Origin: a virus
Reading direction: 5' to 3' (one strand)
IMG/VR virus record: IMGVR_UViG_3300027896_000143
Location: 1-31,603 of that record
Length of the DNA: 31,603 nucleotides
Numbering within the stretch: position 1 is the first letter of the stretch; each line of letters starts with the position of its first letter. The notes beneath the pieces are model-generated. The model was not told the origin of the DNA and made no database searches. It worked only from the letters and a program-made list of their open reading frames with translations. Of this stretch, positions 2,060-31,603 are shown piece after piece. Both the position numbers and the translations under genes were made by a program.

Positions 2060-2805
2060 GCTGCTATCTCCTTGCCAATTTTTGCATAATGCTCTTTAAT
2101 CTTTCCGAAAATCAAAGACCAGTCAGCAGGTTCATAAAATTCAAGAGCTCCAGACCTATCCTTTGTTATTGTTTTTTCTGTTTTACTGGTCAGCAAATAT
2201 CTGGCATGTGGCTTCCCCTTTTCTTCTTCTTTTGTGATAAGTCTGAAAATTTCATCAAAATAGCCCCCCAACTGATATTGCAATTTACCATTAAGGGCAG
2301 GTAATGATTTTATATACCCGGTTTCCTCGTCTTTTTTGTCATCCTCTCCACATGTAAAAATTTGATGGTAAGGAAGGTCTCTAAATAACCTTATCATGCG
2401 CCTCATTTTGGTATCAAGTAAGGAATAATCTTGTTGAGTAAGCAGATCGTCATAAACTTTGCCAATTTCTATTTTTTTTTGTGGTCGCTCCACTTTGATG
2501 ATGTGTTCCTTGCAAAGGTCGTTTAATTCATTGAGAGAATCGATAAATAACACCCTGTATTTATCTTGATTTTCAGCTTCCAAAAGTTCTTTATACGTGT
2601 TTAATAAATCATTCCAGCTTTTGATTGGTACAAACTGGAAATCATGCCCGGCCAAAGGAAGCAAGCCTTTTTCTGTGGATAAAATTAATGTTTTTTCAGT
2701 TGGCAAAGTTTTTGCGCTGGAGGTTTTACCAGTCCCGCTACCACCATATACAATGCAATTTATGTACTCAAGTGCTTTTTCTTTTGTACTCTCGGTTTTA
2801 ATCAC
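2056..2805 (-). CDS. Sak4-like RecA-fold ATPase / ssDNA annealing protein (AAA_24)
   Basis: 249 residues from a GTG start at 2805, preceded by GGGAGGTGAGGG and overlapping the upstream stop (GTGA). Walker A is GGSGTGKTSSA at about residues 21-31, and a Walker B-like strand is VLFIDSLNEL near residue 90. QIFTCGEDDKKDEETG and the LPALNGKLQYQLGGYFDEIF segment are typical of phage nucleotide-binding AAA_24 proteins, the RecA-like core family that includes Sak4 single-strand annealing proteins. These work with a phage SSB; here the SSB-like gene is next in the operon, followed by an exonuclease, so the three genes form a coherent recombination set. Confidence 0.85.
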   Translation of the reverse strand: MIKTESTKEKALEYINCIVYGGSGTGKTSSAKTLPTEKTLILSTEKGLLPLAGHDFQFVPIKSWNDLLNTYKELLEAENQDKYRVLFIDSLNELNDLCKEHIIKVERPQKKIEIGKVYDDLLTQQDYSLLDTKMRRMIRLFRDLPYHQIFTCGEDDKKDEETGYIKSLPALNGKLQYQLGGYFDEIFRLITKEEEKGKPHARYLLTSKTEKTITKDRSGALEFYEPADWSLIFGKIKEHYAKIGKEIAA

Positions 2806-2998: not shown

Positions 2999-3316
2999 TT
3001 ATCTCCTATTTTTATTTAAAATCACAATTGTTTTGTCTTTTGGAATTAAATTTAAAATTTCTGTAAATGATGGTTTGTTTTTTATTCCTAAAAATTCTTC
3101 TATCATTTTTTTATGAAATGCAAATTCATGTGTCCAAACTGGTCTATTCAGTATCTTTTCTGCTGTTTTATGAAATATTTCAAACGGAATACACAGCCGT
3201 TTTTGGTACAGTTGCATTTCGAATAATTCAAACTCGGACATTTTTTCCCATGATTTTGAATGATAAAATTCAACGGCTTCCGTTTTAGTTAATTGTTTTT
3301 TATCCCATAGTCTCAT
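2999..3316 (-). CDS. conserved phage hypothetical protein (105 aa), DUF7736-like
   Basis: 105 residues, with AGGA before the ATG at 3316. The N-terminus (RLWDKKQLTKTEAVEFYHSKSW) and the segment with PVWTHEFAFHKKMIEEF resemble a phage protein family I recall as DUF7736, often found in early gene regions; this assignment is from memory. Charged, mixed alpha and beta, no signal peptide or membrane segment. First well-supported gene of the leftward recombination operon, lying after a structured leader of about 480 nt. Function unknown. Confidence 0.65.
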   Translation of the reverse strand: MRLWDKKQLTKTEAVEFYHSKSWEKMSEFELFEMQLYQKRLCIPFEIFHKTAEKILNRPVWTHEFAFHKKMIEEFLGIKNKPSFTEILNLIPKDKTIVILNKNRR

Positions 3317-3782
3317 GCTTTATCCTATTTTTAATTTGCAAATCGCTTAAAATTAATTTCTCTGACTCTAAAACCTTAATTAGAATCCGCCATTGTTCGA
3401 GTGATTTTTCCTTAACTTTTTCCCCCTTTTTACCAAACCCTAAAAAGGTTGCACCGGGCTTGTGTGTGGAAATGGCGGCCCGGTGCAATTTATCGCAAGA
3501 GTGACTTTTTTTGCGCGGTGCCCCTGTACAATTTTGGAGGAAAGACGGGACACCACGGAACCTAGGAGATAAGCAAGTTAAGGTAAGAGTGCCCGGCGCT
3601 GCCGGCATGGCCTGCGCCGGTTTGGTGTTTAGGTTGCAAATTTCGTGTCTTGTTGCCTCCTGGAATATTGTATGAAAAAAATTAGAGTCGATATTAAAAG
3701 AAGGGCGGTATGATGGTCCACTTGCCAGGGATGGCAAAAAGGAACCGCCCTTCATTATTTCTTCATTCGTTTGTTTTTTCAT
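3300..3782 (-). CDS. doubtful 160-codon leader reading frame
   Basis: An open frame begins at the ATG (3782) that directly follows leader arm A and runs into the next gene by 17 nt. Its start (MKKQTNEEIMKGG) matches the start of the leader frame at 31305 (MKKQIEKIKG). The middle part has odd composition (Pro, Cys, Arg and Ser rich) and is dictated by strong RNA hairpins, including a terminator-like stem, so it does not look like a normal protein. The last 40 residues look more ordinary, but no internal start with a Shine-Dalgarno site was found. I read it mainly as a leader RNA whose first codons may be translated for regulation; a real protein is possible but not favoured. Confidence 0.25.
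   Translation of the reverse strand: MKKQTNEEIMKGGSFLPSLASGPSYRPSFNIDSNFFHTIFQEATRHEICNLNTKPAQAMPAAPGTLTLTCLSPRFRGVPSFLQNCTGAPRKKSHSCDKLHRAAISTHKPGATFLGFGKKGEKVKEKSLEQWRILIKVLESEKLILSDLQIKNRIKHETMG
3442..3488 (-). terminator. intrinsic terminator-like hairpin in the leader
   Basis: On the leftward transcript TTGCACCGGGC (3488-3478) pairs perfectly over 11 bp with GCCCGGTGCAA (3459-3449), loop 18 nt, then CCTTTTT (3448-3442). This fits a strong rho-independent terminator placed about 330 nt after the promoter and before the first well-supported gene, so transcription must pass it for the recombination genes to be made. A second GC-rich stem (CCGGCGC/GCGCCGG) lies just upstream, around 3596-3621. 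Confidence 0.55.
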
Positions 3783-3797
3783 TGTGAACCATCATAC
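3700..3797 (-). ncRNA. structured leader element, copy 2 (recombination operon)
   Basis: In transcript order: arm A GTATGATGGTTCAC (3797-3784), then ATGAAAAAACAAA (from 3782), outer stem 5' arm GAAGGGCGGT (complement of 3744-3753), a perfect 6-bp hairpin TTGCCA-TCCC-TGGCAA (3722-3737), arm B GTGGACCATCATAC (3708-3721; pairs with A at 13 of 14 positions), and outer stem 3' arm ACCGCCCTTC (3700-3709) followed by TTTT. A-B pairing and the outer stem interleave, and share two bases (3708-3709). The layout matches 31223-31320 although the stems differ in sequence. Probably an RNA regulator at the extreme 5' end of the transcript. Confidence 0.6.
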
Positions 3798-3802
3798 CCA
3801 CT

Positions 3803-3830
3803 ATTATAATTAGGAAAAATAGATTTGCAA
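3803..3830 (-). promoter_or_regulatory. leftward sigma70-like promoter of the recombination operon
   Basis: On the minus strand: -35 TTGCAA (3830-3825), 16-bp spacer, perfect -10 TATAAT (3808-3803). The predicted start falls at about 3797, the first base of leader arm A. It is divergent from the promoter at 3947-3975, about 115 bp away. Confidence 0.65.
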
Positions 3831-3855
3831 CTATTTTTTGCATTTTCTATATTTT

Positions 3856-3899
3856 GTGTGTTGGAATTATTAACACACTATATATAGTGTTGATAACAC
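3856..3899. promoter_or_regulatory. palindrome-rich operator region between divergent promoters
   Basis: Three overlapping dyads: GTGTGTT (3856-3862) with AACACAC (3872-3878); a perfect 16-bp palindrome ACACTATATATAGTGT (3875-3890); and GTGTT-GAT-AACAC (3887-3899). All repeat the half-site AACAC/GTGTT. The position between two divergent promoters suggests a repressor or activator operator. The ribbon-helix-helix protein encoded at 4845-5030 is the nearest candidate ligand, by inference only. Confidence 0.55.
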
Positions 3900-3946
3900 A
3901 ACTATCAAAGAATCTACACCTTTCTCATTATTTTTTCATTTTCCTA

Positions 3947-3975
3947 TTGACAAATCGTTTTGGCAATACTATAAT
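3947..3975 (+). promoter_or_regulatory. rightward consensus sigma70 promoter
   Basis: TTGACA (3947-3952), 17-bp spacer, TATAAT (3970-3975): a full consensus match. Expected start near 3982, giving a short leader with AAAAGGAG before the ATG at 4007. Confidence 0.85.
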
Positions 3976-4006
3976 GTAGGTGTAAGATCGAAAAGGAGAT
4001 AAAACG

Positions 4007-4844: not shown

Positions 4845-5030
4845 ATGACCAAACGAGTATGGCAAGATAGCGGGCGGCCCGAATTGCCGCCTGATAAAAA
4901 GCGGTCCTGCTCCGTGCAACTCATGGTGACACCGGGCGAAATGTCCAAATTGAAGGCCCTGGCAGAAAAGGAAAACTGCCGGGTGTCTGAGATTGTCAGA
5001 CGGGCGATTGGGAGGGAATTGTGGAAATGA
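4845..5030 (+). CDS. ribbon-helix-helix DNA-binding protein (61 aa)
   Basis: 61 residues. After a short N-terminal arm, residues about 23-60 (SCSVQLMVTPGEMSKLKALA, then ENCRVSEIVRRAIGREL) match the ribbon-helix-helix pattern: one beta strand for DNA contact, then two helices for dimerisation, as in Arc/CopG-type repressors. The genome has no visible CI-like repressor, so this is the best candidate regulator; the operator region at 3856-3899, upstream of its own operon, is a plausible target. The stop overlaps the next start (ATGA). Confidence 0.75.
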   Translation: MTKRVWQDSGRPELPPDKKRSCSVQLMVTPGEMSKLKALAEKENCRVSEIVRRAIGRELWK

Positions 5031-6669: not shown

Positions 6670-8154
6670 TTATTTCTTCGGCGCTTTCTTGCCAAATATT
6701 GCGTAAATTATTGATGCGACGGCAGTTGCCGCCAGGCCAATTATTGCCCAGGGTGAATGTTTTTTTGTTATCACGGGTTGCGCCGGGCATTGCGCGCCCG
6801 TGTCAATTAAGCGCCTGGCTCCGTCTGAGCAGACCTGGCACCGCTTAACAACGATTGTTGAGCCGTCCCAACATTTTTGAGTTACGTCATTTTGGCACTC
6901 GTCCGGGGGCGGTATAACCGGGTCGAGGTAAACGTATTCCTGCCCCTGCCACCTTGTCATATTCTCCGGAGGCCCATAGCGCCGGGTATACTCGTCAATA
7001 ACTCCCCTGAAGCCATCCAGGATGCAGCCAAGGTTGATTAATTTATCCTTTACTGGTTGCTCGTTTTCCCATATCCCCTCGTTTATGGTTTCGATAATCC
7101 ACAATTTTGTTGTAGGCCCCTTGGCATCGCAGGCCCAGGAGAACATTAATTTTTGTTCTTCCCGGGACGGCTTGCAGTCATGCCGGCCAAAGTTGTCGGC
7201 GCAGTCGCAGGGACTTTTGCCAATCCAAATGCCATCATTGCTGAGGAACCATGCCGTCGAGCTTCCGCCCATGTAGCGGAGGAAATCCTGCAACATTTTG
7301 TCCACGATTCCCACGCCATGAATCTGGCGACGTAGGACCGTACCAAGGTCAATGTGGTATTTCGGGCCTAACCACATATCCAAGTAGCCCTTGATATCGT
7401 CGGCCTGGCTTTTTACGTTGCTTGAGCAGGCGCCAATCATCATCCGATCGAATGTCACCCCATGGCTGAGCAATATTTTCATGGTCCTGGCATGCAGCAA
7501 ATAATTACCGGTTATTTTATTTTTGGGAACGCCAGCGCCAAGAATCTCATTCACCAGGGCATCCGCCTGGCCAAACCCCGGCCCTTCCTGTGATTCCAAT
7601 TCATTGCCCACGCTGAAAATTACGTCATACCCCTGGCACTGTTGCCATAGAAATTCAACCCATTCCGCGCGGCGGCTGATCATGTCGGGCGCGTCCTCAA
7701 ACAGGCCCGGCCCGAATGGCATAAACTGAGCCCAATCGGGATCGGCCTCTGTCCCTTTCCCCCTGTAGGGTTGGCAGAAAATATCCAGCACGGTTTGCAT
7801 GTTATATTTTTTCTGCATCTCAAGATACCGGCGCAGCGCCGGGCCAAACTCAGGGTTGATATGGCCGCCCTTGTAGGCCGGTACCATTATTTTGTCAGCT
7901 TCGGCCTCCGTCCTGTTTGCAATCCAGCCCCATGCCATGATGCGCTGGGTGTTTGCTCCTACCAATCCCACTAACTGCCATTCAACGCGCTCTAACAGGT
8001 TGGGATTGTCAATTACCACCCGATAATTCCAGCAATCGAAAAGAACACTCGGGGAAAGGCCCCATTTGTCACCTGCCGGTAACAGCGCGGCCAGTAAAAT
8101 TAATCCAAAAAATAGGCGCTTCATTTTTGCATTTGTTTTTGAAATTTCTGGCAT
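6670..8154 (-). CDS. glycoside hydrolase-like TIM-barrel protein with signal peptide and C-terminal membrane anchor
   Basis: Start at 8154 is chosen for GGGAGG about 8 nt upstream; ATG 8169 is possible. 494 residues. Residues about 11-27 (KRLFFGLILLAALLPAG) form a signal or anchor helix. The barrel follows (about 28-385): VIFSVGNELES has the Asn-Glu expected of the clan GH-A acid/base, and TKLWIIETINEG the Glu expected of the nucleophile strand. Then comes a Cys-rich linker (CQNDVTQKCWDGSTI, CQVCSDG) and a C-terminal membrane helix (WAIIGLAATAVASIIYAIF) with a basic end. It directly follows the baseplate/receptor protein gene. It may cleave a host glycan for entry or lysis, but substrate and catalytic activity are inferred from motifs alone. 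Confidence 0.65.
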   Translation of the reverse strand: MPEISKTNAKMKRLFFGLILLAALLPAGDKWGLSPSVLFDCWNYRVVIDNPNLLERVEWQLVGLVGANTQRIMAWGWIANRTEAEADKIMVPAYKGGHINPEFGPALRRYLEMQKKYNMQTVLDIFCQPYRGKGTEADPDWAQFMPFGPGLFEDAPDMISRRAEWVEFLWQQCQGYDVIFSVGNELESQEGPGFGQADALVNEILGAGVPKNKITGNYLLHARTMKILLSHGVTFDRMMIGACSSNVKSQADDIKGYLDMWLGPKYHIDLGTVLRRQIHGVGIVDKMLQDFLRYMGGSSTAWFLSNDGIWIGKSPCDCADNFGRHDCKPSREEQKLMFSWACDAKGPTTKLWIIETINEGIWENEQPVKDKLINLGCILDGFRGVIDEYTRRYGPPENMTRWQGQEYVYLDPVIPPPDECQNDVTQKCWDGSTIVVKRCQVCSDGARRLIDTGAQCPAQPVITKKHSPWAIIGLAATAVASIIYAIFGKKAPKK

Positions 8155-29685: not shown

Positions 29686-30458
29686 TGGCGCGCCTCCTTG
29701 CGGTAATCTTTCCCTTTCAAAACTATCCAAGTGGAGTTTTCATGCAGCCTGGAAACAATCTTTTGGCCGTAAATATTTTCCATATCGTGTTTTGTGAGAT
29801 TGGTAGTCACCACAATTTTCCCTTTAAATTCGTCCAGAAGTTCCTTGAAGCCATGATTGAAAACGTTTGTTTCTGTCTGCTTTTCGTCTCCCAAATCATC
29901 AATAATAACAATCGCCGAATTGTATATTGAATCAAGTGCATCGTCATAGATTGGGTCATAATCGTAGCCTGCAATCTCCCGGTAAAGATTATAAAATTTA
30001 CTGGCTGAAATCATCCTGCATTTTCGATATTCAATCTCCGTTTGATTGACAATTGCACTGCATAGATGAGTTTTTCCTGTTCCAGTAGGTCCGCAAATAA
30101 CTATTATTTTATCTGGGTTATTTATCCAAACTTTAATTTTGTTTACTTCTTTTTGCAGGTTATTAAATTTTGGATCGAAAGATTTAAAAGTTTTGGCTTT
30201 GGATTTAATAAAAAATCTGTTTTCCAGTTGGTTTTCAATTTTTTCAACTTCTATTTTCCTTTCATCTATTTCTTTTTTTAAATGGTCTTGCAACCAATAT
30301 TCTTGACTATCATCATAATCCGGGCATTTTTTGCTGAACATTCTTTGGCTGATAGAAAACTCATTTCCTCTATTACCAAAATTATAATAATGATAATTCC
30401 CGTCACAGTATTCCGGAAATCCTTGCGGATGATCTGGCAATAATTTCATATCACACAT
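29682..30458 (-). CDS. DnaC-like helicase-loader ATPase (258 aa)
   Basis: 258 residues. After a helical N-terminal part (DHLKKEIDERKIEVEKIENQ), the AAA+ core: IIVICGPTGTGKTHLCSAI (Walker A, about 130), AIVIIDDLGDEKQTE (Walker B), KIVVTTNLTKHDM (sensor 1) and KIVSRLHENSTWIVLKGKDY-R (arginine region), as in DnaC/IstB-like loaders. It follows the replication initiator gene with an 8-nt overlap, the usual pair for recruiting host DnaB helicase to a phage origin. Confidence 0.88.
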   Translation of the reverse strand: MCDMKLLPDHPQGFPEYCDGNYHYYNFGNRGNEFSISQRMFSKKCPDYDDSQEYWLQDHLKKEIDERKIEVEKIENQLENRFFIKSKAKTFKSFDPKFNNLQKEVNKIKVWINNPDKIIVICGPTGTGKTHLCSAIVNQTEIEYRKCRMISASKFYNLYREIAGYDYDPIYDDALDSIYNSAIVIIDDLGDEKQTETNVFNHGFKELLDEFKGKIVVTTNLTKHDMENIYGQKIVSRLHENSTWIVLKGKDYRKEARQ

Positions 30459-31200
30459 TTTTACTTAACCCCAAACGTTCATTTTCTTTTTGTTCAGCGT
30501 CCCAGTCGGTTTCTTGGCCTCCATTTTTTATTGCCGAAAGTGGTTTCTCTTCTTTCCATTTTTTTCCATTAAGATTCCAGGTAGCAGCAGCGGCATGCCA
30601 ATTTTTCATTTTTACTTTTCCAATAATCCAGCCTTTCGATTCATGATGATTCCAGAATTTTGTAGCCTGATATTCCGGGTCTAAATAATTTTTCTCTTTG
30701 AAATAATAAATTACTTGGTCGATGGTGGGGGGGACAAAGTTCCCTCTCTCTCTCTTCTTATCATTCTTCTCATTCTTCTCATTCTTGTATGTGGTCGCTT
30801 GTTGGTCTTTTGTTGGTCGCTTGCTGGTCGCTTGAGGTACGCCTTGTTGGTCGTTTTGCTGGTCGTTTTCTATGTCATCACATTGGTATTTCTCCCAATT
30901 AATCAAGGTTACGATGGAAAATTTGTTGGTCGTCTTGACTGACAGGTTGTTGGTCGTTTTTAGCGTGTTTAGACAAGTGCGGACCTCTCTTTCTGAAAGA
31001 TTCAAGGCGGCTGCGGCTTTCAGGCGACCAAAAATAAATTGACCAGGCTGTAAAGTTATCTCTTGGAATCCCTCGAAAACTTTAATTTCTTTGTGTGTCG
31101 CACTCATAAGACAATAACTCCAAAATACCCAAAGTTTATGATTTCTGAGCCATCCATTTTTAAGCGAACGCCTGAAAAGTTTAACATACCCGTCCTTCAT
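30451..31200 (-). CDS. replication initiator with winged-helix N-terminus (O-like)
   Basis: 249 residues. Residues 1-105 (YVKLFRRSLKNGWLRNHKLW, FGRLKAAAALNLSEREVRTC, FSIVTLINWEKYQC) match phage replication proteins with a winged helix. The middle is a Gln/Lys/Asn-rich linker with NDQQ repeats and three NEK units, encoded by the iterons. The C-terminus (FVPPTIDQVIYYFKEKN, KFWNHHESKGWIIG, WHAAAATWNL) is typical of the same family. No Shine-Dalgarno site: the ATG directly follows the TAA of the leader frame (TAAATG), so translation is probably by coupling. The origin likely lies inside the gene, as in lambda O. Confidence 0.82.
   Translation of the reverse strand: MKDGYVKLFRRSLKNGWLRNHKLWVFWSYCLMSATHKEIKVFEGFQEITLQPGQFIFGRLKAAAALNLSEREVRTCLNTLKTTNNLSVKTTNKFSIVTLINWEKYQCDDIENDQQNDQQGVPQATSKRPTKDQQATTYKNEKNEKNDKKRERGNFVPPTIDQVIYYFKEKNYLDPEYQATKFWNHHESKGWIIGKVKMKNWHAAAATWNLNGKKWKEEKPLSAIKNGGQETDWDAEQKENERLGLSKNV
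30791..30960. repeat. iteron array, candidate replication origin
   Basis: Eight direct copies of an 11-12-mer close to TTGGTCGYTTG on the plus strand: four in tandem at 30791-30834 (GTGGTCGCTTG, TTGGTCTTTTG, TTGGTCGCTTG, CTGGTCGCTTG), two at 30847-30870, one at 30926-30937, one at 30950-30960. The 11-nt step is one helical turn, so bound initiators would lie on one face. A 9-bp CATTCTTCT triplet lies at about 30761-30786. Position inside the initiator gene is as in lambda-like origins. Confidence 0.7.
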
Positions 31201-31305
31201 TTAATTTTCAAAAATATAAAATAGGGTTTGCCCTGTGTGATGACACTGAGCTTGAAGCTCAAAAGTCCAGGACAAACCCTTTATTTTTTCAATTTGTTTT
31301 TTCAT
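31201..31305 (-). CDS. leader peptide frame (34 codons) coupled to the initiator
   Basis: Begins at ATGAAAAAACAAA just after arm A, has no Shine-Dalgarno site, and ends with a TAA directly next to the initiator ATG in the same frame. Encodes MKKQIEKIKGLSWTFELQAQ and a further 14 residues. Its start matches the frame at 3782. Likely regulatory: its translation would open or close the RNA stems and reload ribosomes on the initiator. Confidence 0.5.
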   Translation of the reverse strand: MKKQIEKIKGLSWTFELQAQCHHTGQTLFYIFEN

Positions 31306-31320
31306 TTTGTGTCATCACAT
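31223..31320 (-). ncRNA. structured leader element, copy 1 (replication/late operon)
   Basis: In transcript order: arm A ATGTGATGACAC (31320-31309), ATGAAAAAACAAA (from 31305), outer stem 5' arm AGGGTTTG (31280-31273) continued by CCTG after one mismatch, hairpin TGAGC-TTCAA-GCTCA (31247-31261), arm B GTGTCATCACAC (31246-31235; pairs with A at 11 of 12), and 3' arm CAAACCCT (31230-31223) then ATTTTATATTTTT. Same order and spacing as 3700-3797, with different stem sequences. A-B centres are 74 bp apart here and 76 there. Confidence 0.6.
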
Positions 31321-31324
31321 TTTT

Positions 31325-31353
31325 ACCTTACCACTCCAAAAACTAAAAGTCAA
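31325..31353 (-). promoter_or_regulatory. leftward promoter of replication/late block
   Basis: Minus strand: -35 TTGACT (31353-31348), 17-bp spacer, weak -10 TAAGGT (31330-31325). Predicted start is at about 31318-31320, at the beginning of arm A. The good -35 with poor -10 suggests a weak or activated promoter. Confidence 0.5.
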
Positions 31354-31391: not shown

Positions 31392-31603
31392 TTATTCAGG
31401 CAATTCCAATTCAGAAACATTTTTCAAAACTTCGACAATATTGTCGATTTGCTCATCCCAGGCAGCAGCCCAGGCAGCATCACTGGCAGCAGCACTGGCA
31501 GCCCAGGCAGCAGCACTGGCAGCAGCCCTGGCAGCAGCACTGGCATCACTGGCAGCAGCACTGGCAGCCCAGGCAGCAGCACTGGCAGCAGCCCTGGCAG
31601 CAG
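31392..31603 (-). CDS. Imm5-like putative immunity protein, C-terminal part (runs off window end)
   Basis: This is the continuation of the gene that begins at 479. It holds further copies of the 22-residue alanine-rich unit, a degenerate final unit (DAAWAAAWDEQ), and a short acidic tail ending SELELPE before the TAA at 31392-31394. Simple end-to-end concatenation (479 + 212 nt) would break the frame, while merging the 91-bp overlap keeps it; this supports a circular molecule. The stop lies about 40 bp upstream of the -35 box of the next leftward promoter, and I see no strong terminator between them. Confidence 0.68.
   Translation of the reverse strand, partial: AARAAASAAAWAASAAASDASAAARAAASAAAWAASAAASDAAWAAAWDEQIDNIVEVLKNVSELELPE
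31452..31603. repeat. 66-bp tandem repeat within the Imm5-like gene, right end; 91-bp terminal overlap
   Basis: The same repeat family at the other end of the window. The last 91 bases equal the first 91, as expected of a circular assembly closed in a repeat. Overlaps shorter by one 66-bp unit would also keep the frame, so copy number is unresolved. Confidence 0.9.

Follow-up and report, generated by a model that had tools for sequence, protein, structure and literature searches.

In the window analyzed here, a complete IMG/VR virus record of 31603 bases, both leftward operons begin with a leader in which two long-range helices interleave, one (A:B) starting at or near the 5' end of the transcript and the other (O5:O3) running into a U-tract, while an open reading frame (ORF) without a Shine-Dalgarno sequence (SD) crosses the whole structure. 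Both window leaders (W1 for copy 1, W2 for copy 2) are confirmed as real, and the interleaving of A:B with O5:O3 recurs in related phages (leaders L018, L019, and L022), so that it is present in five of five leaders from four phages. Our preferred reading of these sequences, to which we give about an even chance, is that each element would act in cis, where a phage operon begins, to attenuate transcription in a ribosome-dependent manner. More tentatively, and with appreciably less confidence, we propose that these phage leader RNAs form a class not yet described: a footprint-long linker would separate the interleaved helices, and the choice between termination and readthrough would depend on where the first ribosome stands on a leaderless or nearly leaderless ORF.

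The two window leaders share one order of parts on the minus strand: promoter, arm A at about +1, A-rich linker, outer-stem arm O5, small hairpin, arm B, outer-stem arm O3, and U-tract. Every part that a first-pass annotation of this DNA had named was recovered there. The copy 1 promoter (31325-31353), assigned by eye, consists of TTGACT (31353-31348), a 17-nt spacer, and TAAGGT (31330-31325); its -10 is weak and preceded by TGG (an extended -10 TG), and it is absent from the list of our consensus promoter scan. Scanner and sequence place arm A (TGTGATGACAC) at 31309-31319, followed by a 28-nt linker, L1 (31281-31308), that matches roughly one ribosome footprint in length, is 75% A, and contains the ATG at 31305. 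O5 (AGGGTTTGTCCTG, 31268-31280) and arm B (GTGTCATCACA, 31236-31246, 11 bp with A), both found by the scanner, flank a small hairpin predicted by RNA folding (TTGAGCT TCA AGCTCAG, 31246-31262), and O3 (CAGGGCAAACCCT, 31223-31235, scanner) pairs with O5 over 13 bp and is followed on its 3' side by a terminator-like U-tract (ATTTTATATTTTT, 31210-31222). Copy 2 has a sigma-70 promoter found by the consensus scan (TTGCAA-16-TATAAT, 10/12 matches, 3803-3830) directly upstream of the leader, arm A (GGTATGATGGTTCAC, 3784-3798, scanner and sequence), a 30-nt A-rich linker L1 (3754-3783) containing the ATG at 3782, O5 (GAAGGGCGGT, 3744-3753), a small hairpin from RNA folding (TTGCCATCCCTGGCAA, 3722-3737), arm B (GTGGACCATCATACC, 3707-3721, 15 bp with A including one G-U), O3 (ACCGCCCTTC, 3700-3709, 3 nt in common with B), and the U-tract TTTTAAT (3693-3699); O5, B, and O3 were again located by the scanner. 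We measured the A-B spacing, start to start, as 73 and 77, close to the 74 and 76 given before.

Chance inverted repeats, or a repeat acting at the DNA level, would be one explanation for such an arrangement, and loose interleaved stems do arise by chance in coding DNA. To weigh this, we used a purpose-written scanner that looks for a pair of interleaved helices, A:B and O5:O3, in which B is immediately followed by O3. When 8 bp was the minimum helix length, both copies were recovered from the window, plus one overlapping plus-strand pair in the copy 2 leader. At a strict setting (both helices at least 9 bp, score at least 24, linker and U-tract required), the window gave two matches and 60 window shuffles gave none; a looser setting gave eight matches in the 60 shuffles, or 0.13 per window. 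The RNA folding z-scores were -5.4 (copy 1) and -4.3 (copy 2). Together with recurrence at promoters in relatives and base-pair changes that fit RNA pairing (below), the strict counts make the chance or DNA-repeat explanation scarcely credible.

A terL-guided search brought up phages with terminases 51-61% identical, and the same layout was present in three of them (L018, L019, and L022; terminases 57-60% identical), with stem sequences unrelated to those of the window copies. These elements lie on the minus strand at 6899, 2889, and 2690, respectively, upstream of terS/terL and directed away from them, each with a sigma-70 promoter just upstream (10-11/12 matches). Their downstream operons carry genes for primases, helicases, and additional replication proteins. 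In the window there is, as had been noted before, one copy per leftward operon: copy 1 stands ahead of genes for DnaD-like and DnaC-like loaders, and a Sak4/SSB/exonuclease operon follows copy 2. Thus, in these contigs the element marks the starts of early/replication operons. The L018 element departs from the others in having no small hairpin and in its arm A, which starts about 13 nt past both +1 and the ATG. In the small hairpin's place, L018 has TGCTTACCA (L018:6780-6913, minus strand), which is complementary to TGGTAAGCA at the extreme 5' end and could form a third crossing helix.

Conservation lies in the pairing and not in the sequence. Beyond short chance runs, the arms have nothing in common among W1, W2, and L018 or between these and L019/L022, and W1 and W2 share only the linker. 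An exact 13-mer (ATGAAAAAACAAA) shared by the two window leaders is not a family feature, the relatives' linkers being other A-rich, G-poor sequences. A MAFFT alignment of the five leaders was unusable, their stems being unrelated. L019 and L022 are similar enough for a comparison of individual base pairs, which reaches past the scanned core. Of their 25 stem pairs, seven differ, none is broken, and two of the changes are two-sided: A:B has 14 pairs (12 identical, one with a one-sided change, and one with a two-sided change), and O5:O3 has 11 (six identical, four one-sided, and one two-sided). The one-sided changes exchange G-C or A-U for G-U, a pair that RNA allows and DNA does not. The search itself gives biased G-U counts, since the scanner permits at most one G-U per helix. 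The first-pass annotation had seen what looked like compensatory change between the two window copies; pairing is indeed kept in L019/L022, but two copies in one genome cannot demonstrate covariation at homologous pairs. The annotation's preference for RNA over DNA function is borne out by the promoter, the U-tract, the G-U pairs, and the pairing kept through sequence change in relatives.

The absence of conserved stem sequence explains why sequence-based searches miss the element. Searching phage records by blastn with the L019, L022, and W2 elements gave no match or just short A-rich ones. Protein-guided scans (dnaD, sak4, dnaC, exonuclease, a relative's dnaB, and, twice, terL) and a scan with one DNA pattern found carriers only in L018, L019, and L022; the element is absent upstream of dnaD in the dnaD relatives L004-L006, and a prophage search in genomes found neither host nor element. 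Scanner matches in L005, L016, L018 (at 18796), L021, L023, and L025 lie within coding frames and were rejected. A different interleaved pair at L087:3090-3170 (ACGGGCTGA/TCAGCCCGC and AAAAAAAGTGTTAA/TTAACACTTTTTTT) has no promoter or ORF and was excluded; it lies just upstream of a plus-strand gene with an SD, is a candidate H-type pseudoknot, and has no Rfam match.

The A:B and O5:O3 (O) folds are close in predicted stability. Their energies (A:B/O, kcal/mol) are -29.9/-35.8 for W1, -35.5/-30.8 for W2, -18.6/-29.6 for L018, -35.2/-32.4 for L019, and -28.7/-35.7 for L022; thus, the two folds are 3-7 kcal/mol apart in four of five leaders, and in L018 A:B is 11 kcal/mol weaker than O. When we folded the growing transcript, A:B was predicted to reach P>0.9 before O3 was complete in four of five leaders; at full length W1 shifts to O and W2 retains A:B, all of these with tools that score no pseudoknots. 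The W2 helices have 3 nt in common, so both cannot be complete together. Both window leaders are interleaved, in agreement with the earlier suggestion of a pseudoknot or competing folds. With A:B spanning 9-15 bp and arm A beginning at, or close to, the predicted transcript start, the helix could instead serve as a 5' protector that shields the transcript from 5'-end-dependent decay. We consider this quite improbable: the outer stem, the U-tract, and the open frame would be left unexplained, and the L018 arm A begins about 13 nt into the transcript.

The leader ORF was overlooked by the first-pass annotation, which had noted ATGAAAAAACAAA without a ribosome site; neither the ATG at 31305 nor that at 3782 has an SD. 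In all five leaders an SD-less, 5'-proximal ATG within or beside arm A opens a frame across the full structure, and exactly one frame per element runs without a stop from the 5' region to the end of the U-tract, always the one set by this ATG. The copy 1 ORF (31201-31305, minus strand; 34 codons, MKKQIEKIKG...FEN*) spans all stems, and its TAA abuts the ATG at 31200 of the first gene of operon 1, dnaD (30451-31200, minus strand; DnaD-like helicase loader, phrog_2514, 1.8e-31), which has no SD. The copy 2 ORF (3300-3782, minus strand; 160 codons) overlaps the first gene (2999-3316) by 17 nt. In the relatives, the ORF overlaps the first gene (L022), ends 11 nt short of it (L019), or is in frame with it (L018). 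To estimate how often such openness would arise by chance, we shuffled each leader while preserving its stems, its pair composition, and the makeup of every individual loop; the frame was open in 2.5, 7.2, 7.1, 6.9, and 3.3% of the shuffles for the five leaders. The product is ~3e-7, to be read with the facts that the rule (ATG within the first 26 nt) was set after inspecting the sequences and that the leaders are not fully independent, L019 and L022 being close kin and W1 and W2 coming from the same genome; taking one per related pair (W1, L018, L022), the joint value is ~6e-5. The W2 frame also continues, about 200 nt farther on, through a second hairpin of terminator-like form (approximately 3435-3488, minus strand; 11-bp stem, 18-nt loop, CCTTTTT, -21.6 kcal/mol), and this 160-codon openness has a shuffle p of 5e-5. 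The loop of this hairpin (CCGCCATT) can pair with AATGGCGG farther downstream. Codon use in the W1 and W2 frames is unlike that of the phage's genes, and the leader peptides are not conserved. From a frame that is kept open with noncoding-like codon use and unconserved peptides, we infer that the act of leader translation is under maintenance rather than the peptide.

Two further explanations were considered. In the first, A:B would be a translational start lock that hides the leader start on finished transcripts, so that only ribosomes loaded before B emerges translate, and the outer stem would be nonterminating. The ATG inside or beside A in five of five leaders, the prediction, for four of five, that A:B forms at P>0.9 when B has emerged, and the coupling of the first gene to the leader ORF (the TAA-ATG junction of copy 1) all suit a start lock, which has no need for O5:O3 or the U-tract, yet both are present in all five; moreover, the first genes of L018 and L022 have their own SD. 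We regard the start lock as unlikely. In the second, the terminated leader of ~105-120 nt would itself be a structured phage small RNA. The unit from promoter to U-tract is self-contained and its folds are very stable, but there is no conserved sequence for a target, an open frame is present, and the first gene starts 10-40 nt 3' of the U-tract in four of five leaders, making this explanation very improbable.

The preferred reading, ribosome-dependent attenuation, draws on the spacing of the parts. The linkers are unstructured, measure 28, 30, 39, 29, and 35 nt in the five leaders, and are 65% A and 6% G overall; only ~1% of coding-strand 30-mers are as A-rich and G-poor. A ribosome spans ~30 nt (PMC4824070). 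In all five leaders O5:O3 would form 10-13 bp, with a long loop holding an internal hairpin in those that have one, and is followed by a T-rich tract. A ribosome moving along the leader would thus always block one helix or the other. Placed on the start codon or first codons, it would cover A, leave B unpaired, and let the terminator O5:O3 form; about one footprint farther on it would cover O5, no terminator would form, and transcription would proceed, with leader translation then handed on to the first gene. Without a ribosome, A:B would form first and close the start region, and the outcome would be set by competition from O5:O3 or by its coexistence with A:B in a pseudoknot. Operon output would thereby be coupled to timely translation of the nascent leader. 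Terminators within a leader ORF can be blocked by ribosomes (pyrBI, PMC10135430; also PMC4824070). Terminators placed within the first 100 bp of an E. coli coding region often remain effective, since ribosomes lag, unless a pause helps (PMC4824070), and for this reason the model requires a pause. A candidate for the signal that would hold RNA polymerase and let the ribosome catch up is the small hairpin lying between O5 and B, though L018 has none. If the model is true, these phages tie early/replication gene expression to prompt loading of host ribosomes on the nascent leader with no protein regulator, by a compact design in which linker length is expected to match the ribosome footprint and one architecture with freely changing sequence serves several operons.

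By analogy of layout, the nearest working analogue is pyrBI (pyrL) of E. coli, where a leader ORF runs through an intrinsic terminator and the coupled ribosome prevents termination (PMC10135430, PMC4824070). Judged from the DNA, all five phage leaders have an open frame into or through a putative terminator, a stem and U-tract between promoter and first gene. The pyrBI leader has a normal ribosome site, in contrast to the SD-less ATG here, and senses UTP via pausing on its U-rich leader; we know of no long-range 5' arm in it interleaved with the terminator, as in the phage leaders. The trp/his attenuators share mutually exclusive RNA pairings, a leader ORF, and a terminator with U-tract, but their ORF carries regulatory codons and ends before the terminator, whereas the phage ORF crosses it in all five leaders and reaches the first gene. 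The five leader ORFs have no conserved codon run beyond general A-richness. The T4 gene 32 leader likewise places a pseudoknot-capable 5' leader beside an A/U-rich single strand ahead of a phage replication gene; its pseudoknot is a protein-binding site for translational repression, with no terminator and no ORF through it, and the phage leaders have both a terminator-like stem and a crossing ORF. The parts are thus familiar, and the combination of an interleaved 5' arm and an SD-less, nearly leaderless ORF matches no described family in the open-access literature. Nor is there a match in Rfam 15 at the gathering threshold, and single elements scanned permissively gave no hits above chance level; the first-pass annotation, too, had known of no described family with this layout.

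The first-pass annotation had likened the two copies to the put sites of phage HK022 and spoken of a cis-acting attenuator or antiterminator. Attenuation is the part we retain as the best reading. In a put-like antiterminator the folded 5' RNA would bind the elongating polymerase and read through later terminators, and one structured nascent RNA near the start of each of two operons, right at the promoter, is the likeness; operon 1 may extend ~26 kb, and the second hairpin of the copy 2 leader is a further strong terminator-like structure. However, HK022 put is ~70 nt of two separate stem-loops with sequence common to its copies, and it binds the beta' zinc-binding domain of RNA polymerase (PMC9378689). 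Here the stems interleave in five of five leaders, the second stem runs into a U-tract, the arms are unrelated between copies, leaving no conserved sequence for recognition by a polymerase surface, and a ribosome translating the leader ORF would unfold the fold. In the relatives' contigs, the element was seen on the early operon only. We therefore regard put-like antitermination as unlikely. In HK022 itself, a pair of interleaved helices lies in a 48-codon ORF (MTKQLSPYQDK...) overlapping gene O (L139:2890-3040, 29889-30039); it has no U-tract and was judged a nonmember, and the pair at L139:2900 is probably chance (~1 per 22 kb expected). The position of this ORF resembles that of copy 1 before dnaD. 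A second HK022 pair, downstream of the repressor gene, has no linker, was likewise judged a nonmember, and is probably operator DNA.

Several neighboring features were observed. In the window, the divergent region at 3800-3990 and 4845-5030 (plus strand) has a perfect TTGACA-17-TATAAT promoter (plus strand, 3947-3975) and GTGTT/AACAC palindromes, and a small gene nearby shows similarity to ribbon-helix-helix repressors (NikA-like, PHROG transcriptional repressor). Adjoining the copy 1 promoter, window positions 31450-31603 contain tandem repeats of the CTGCTGCC type, in a frame that the contig end truncates. In L019, repeated TAGGTTGTAT motifs in both orientations (2080-2390, minus strand) lie upstream of a helicase/primase gene and are possibly replication iterons.
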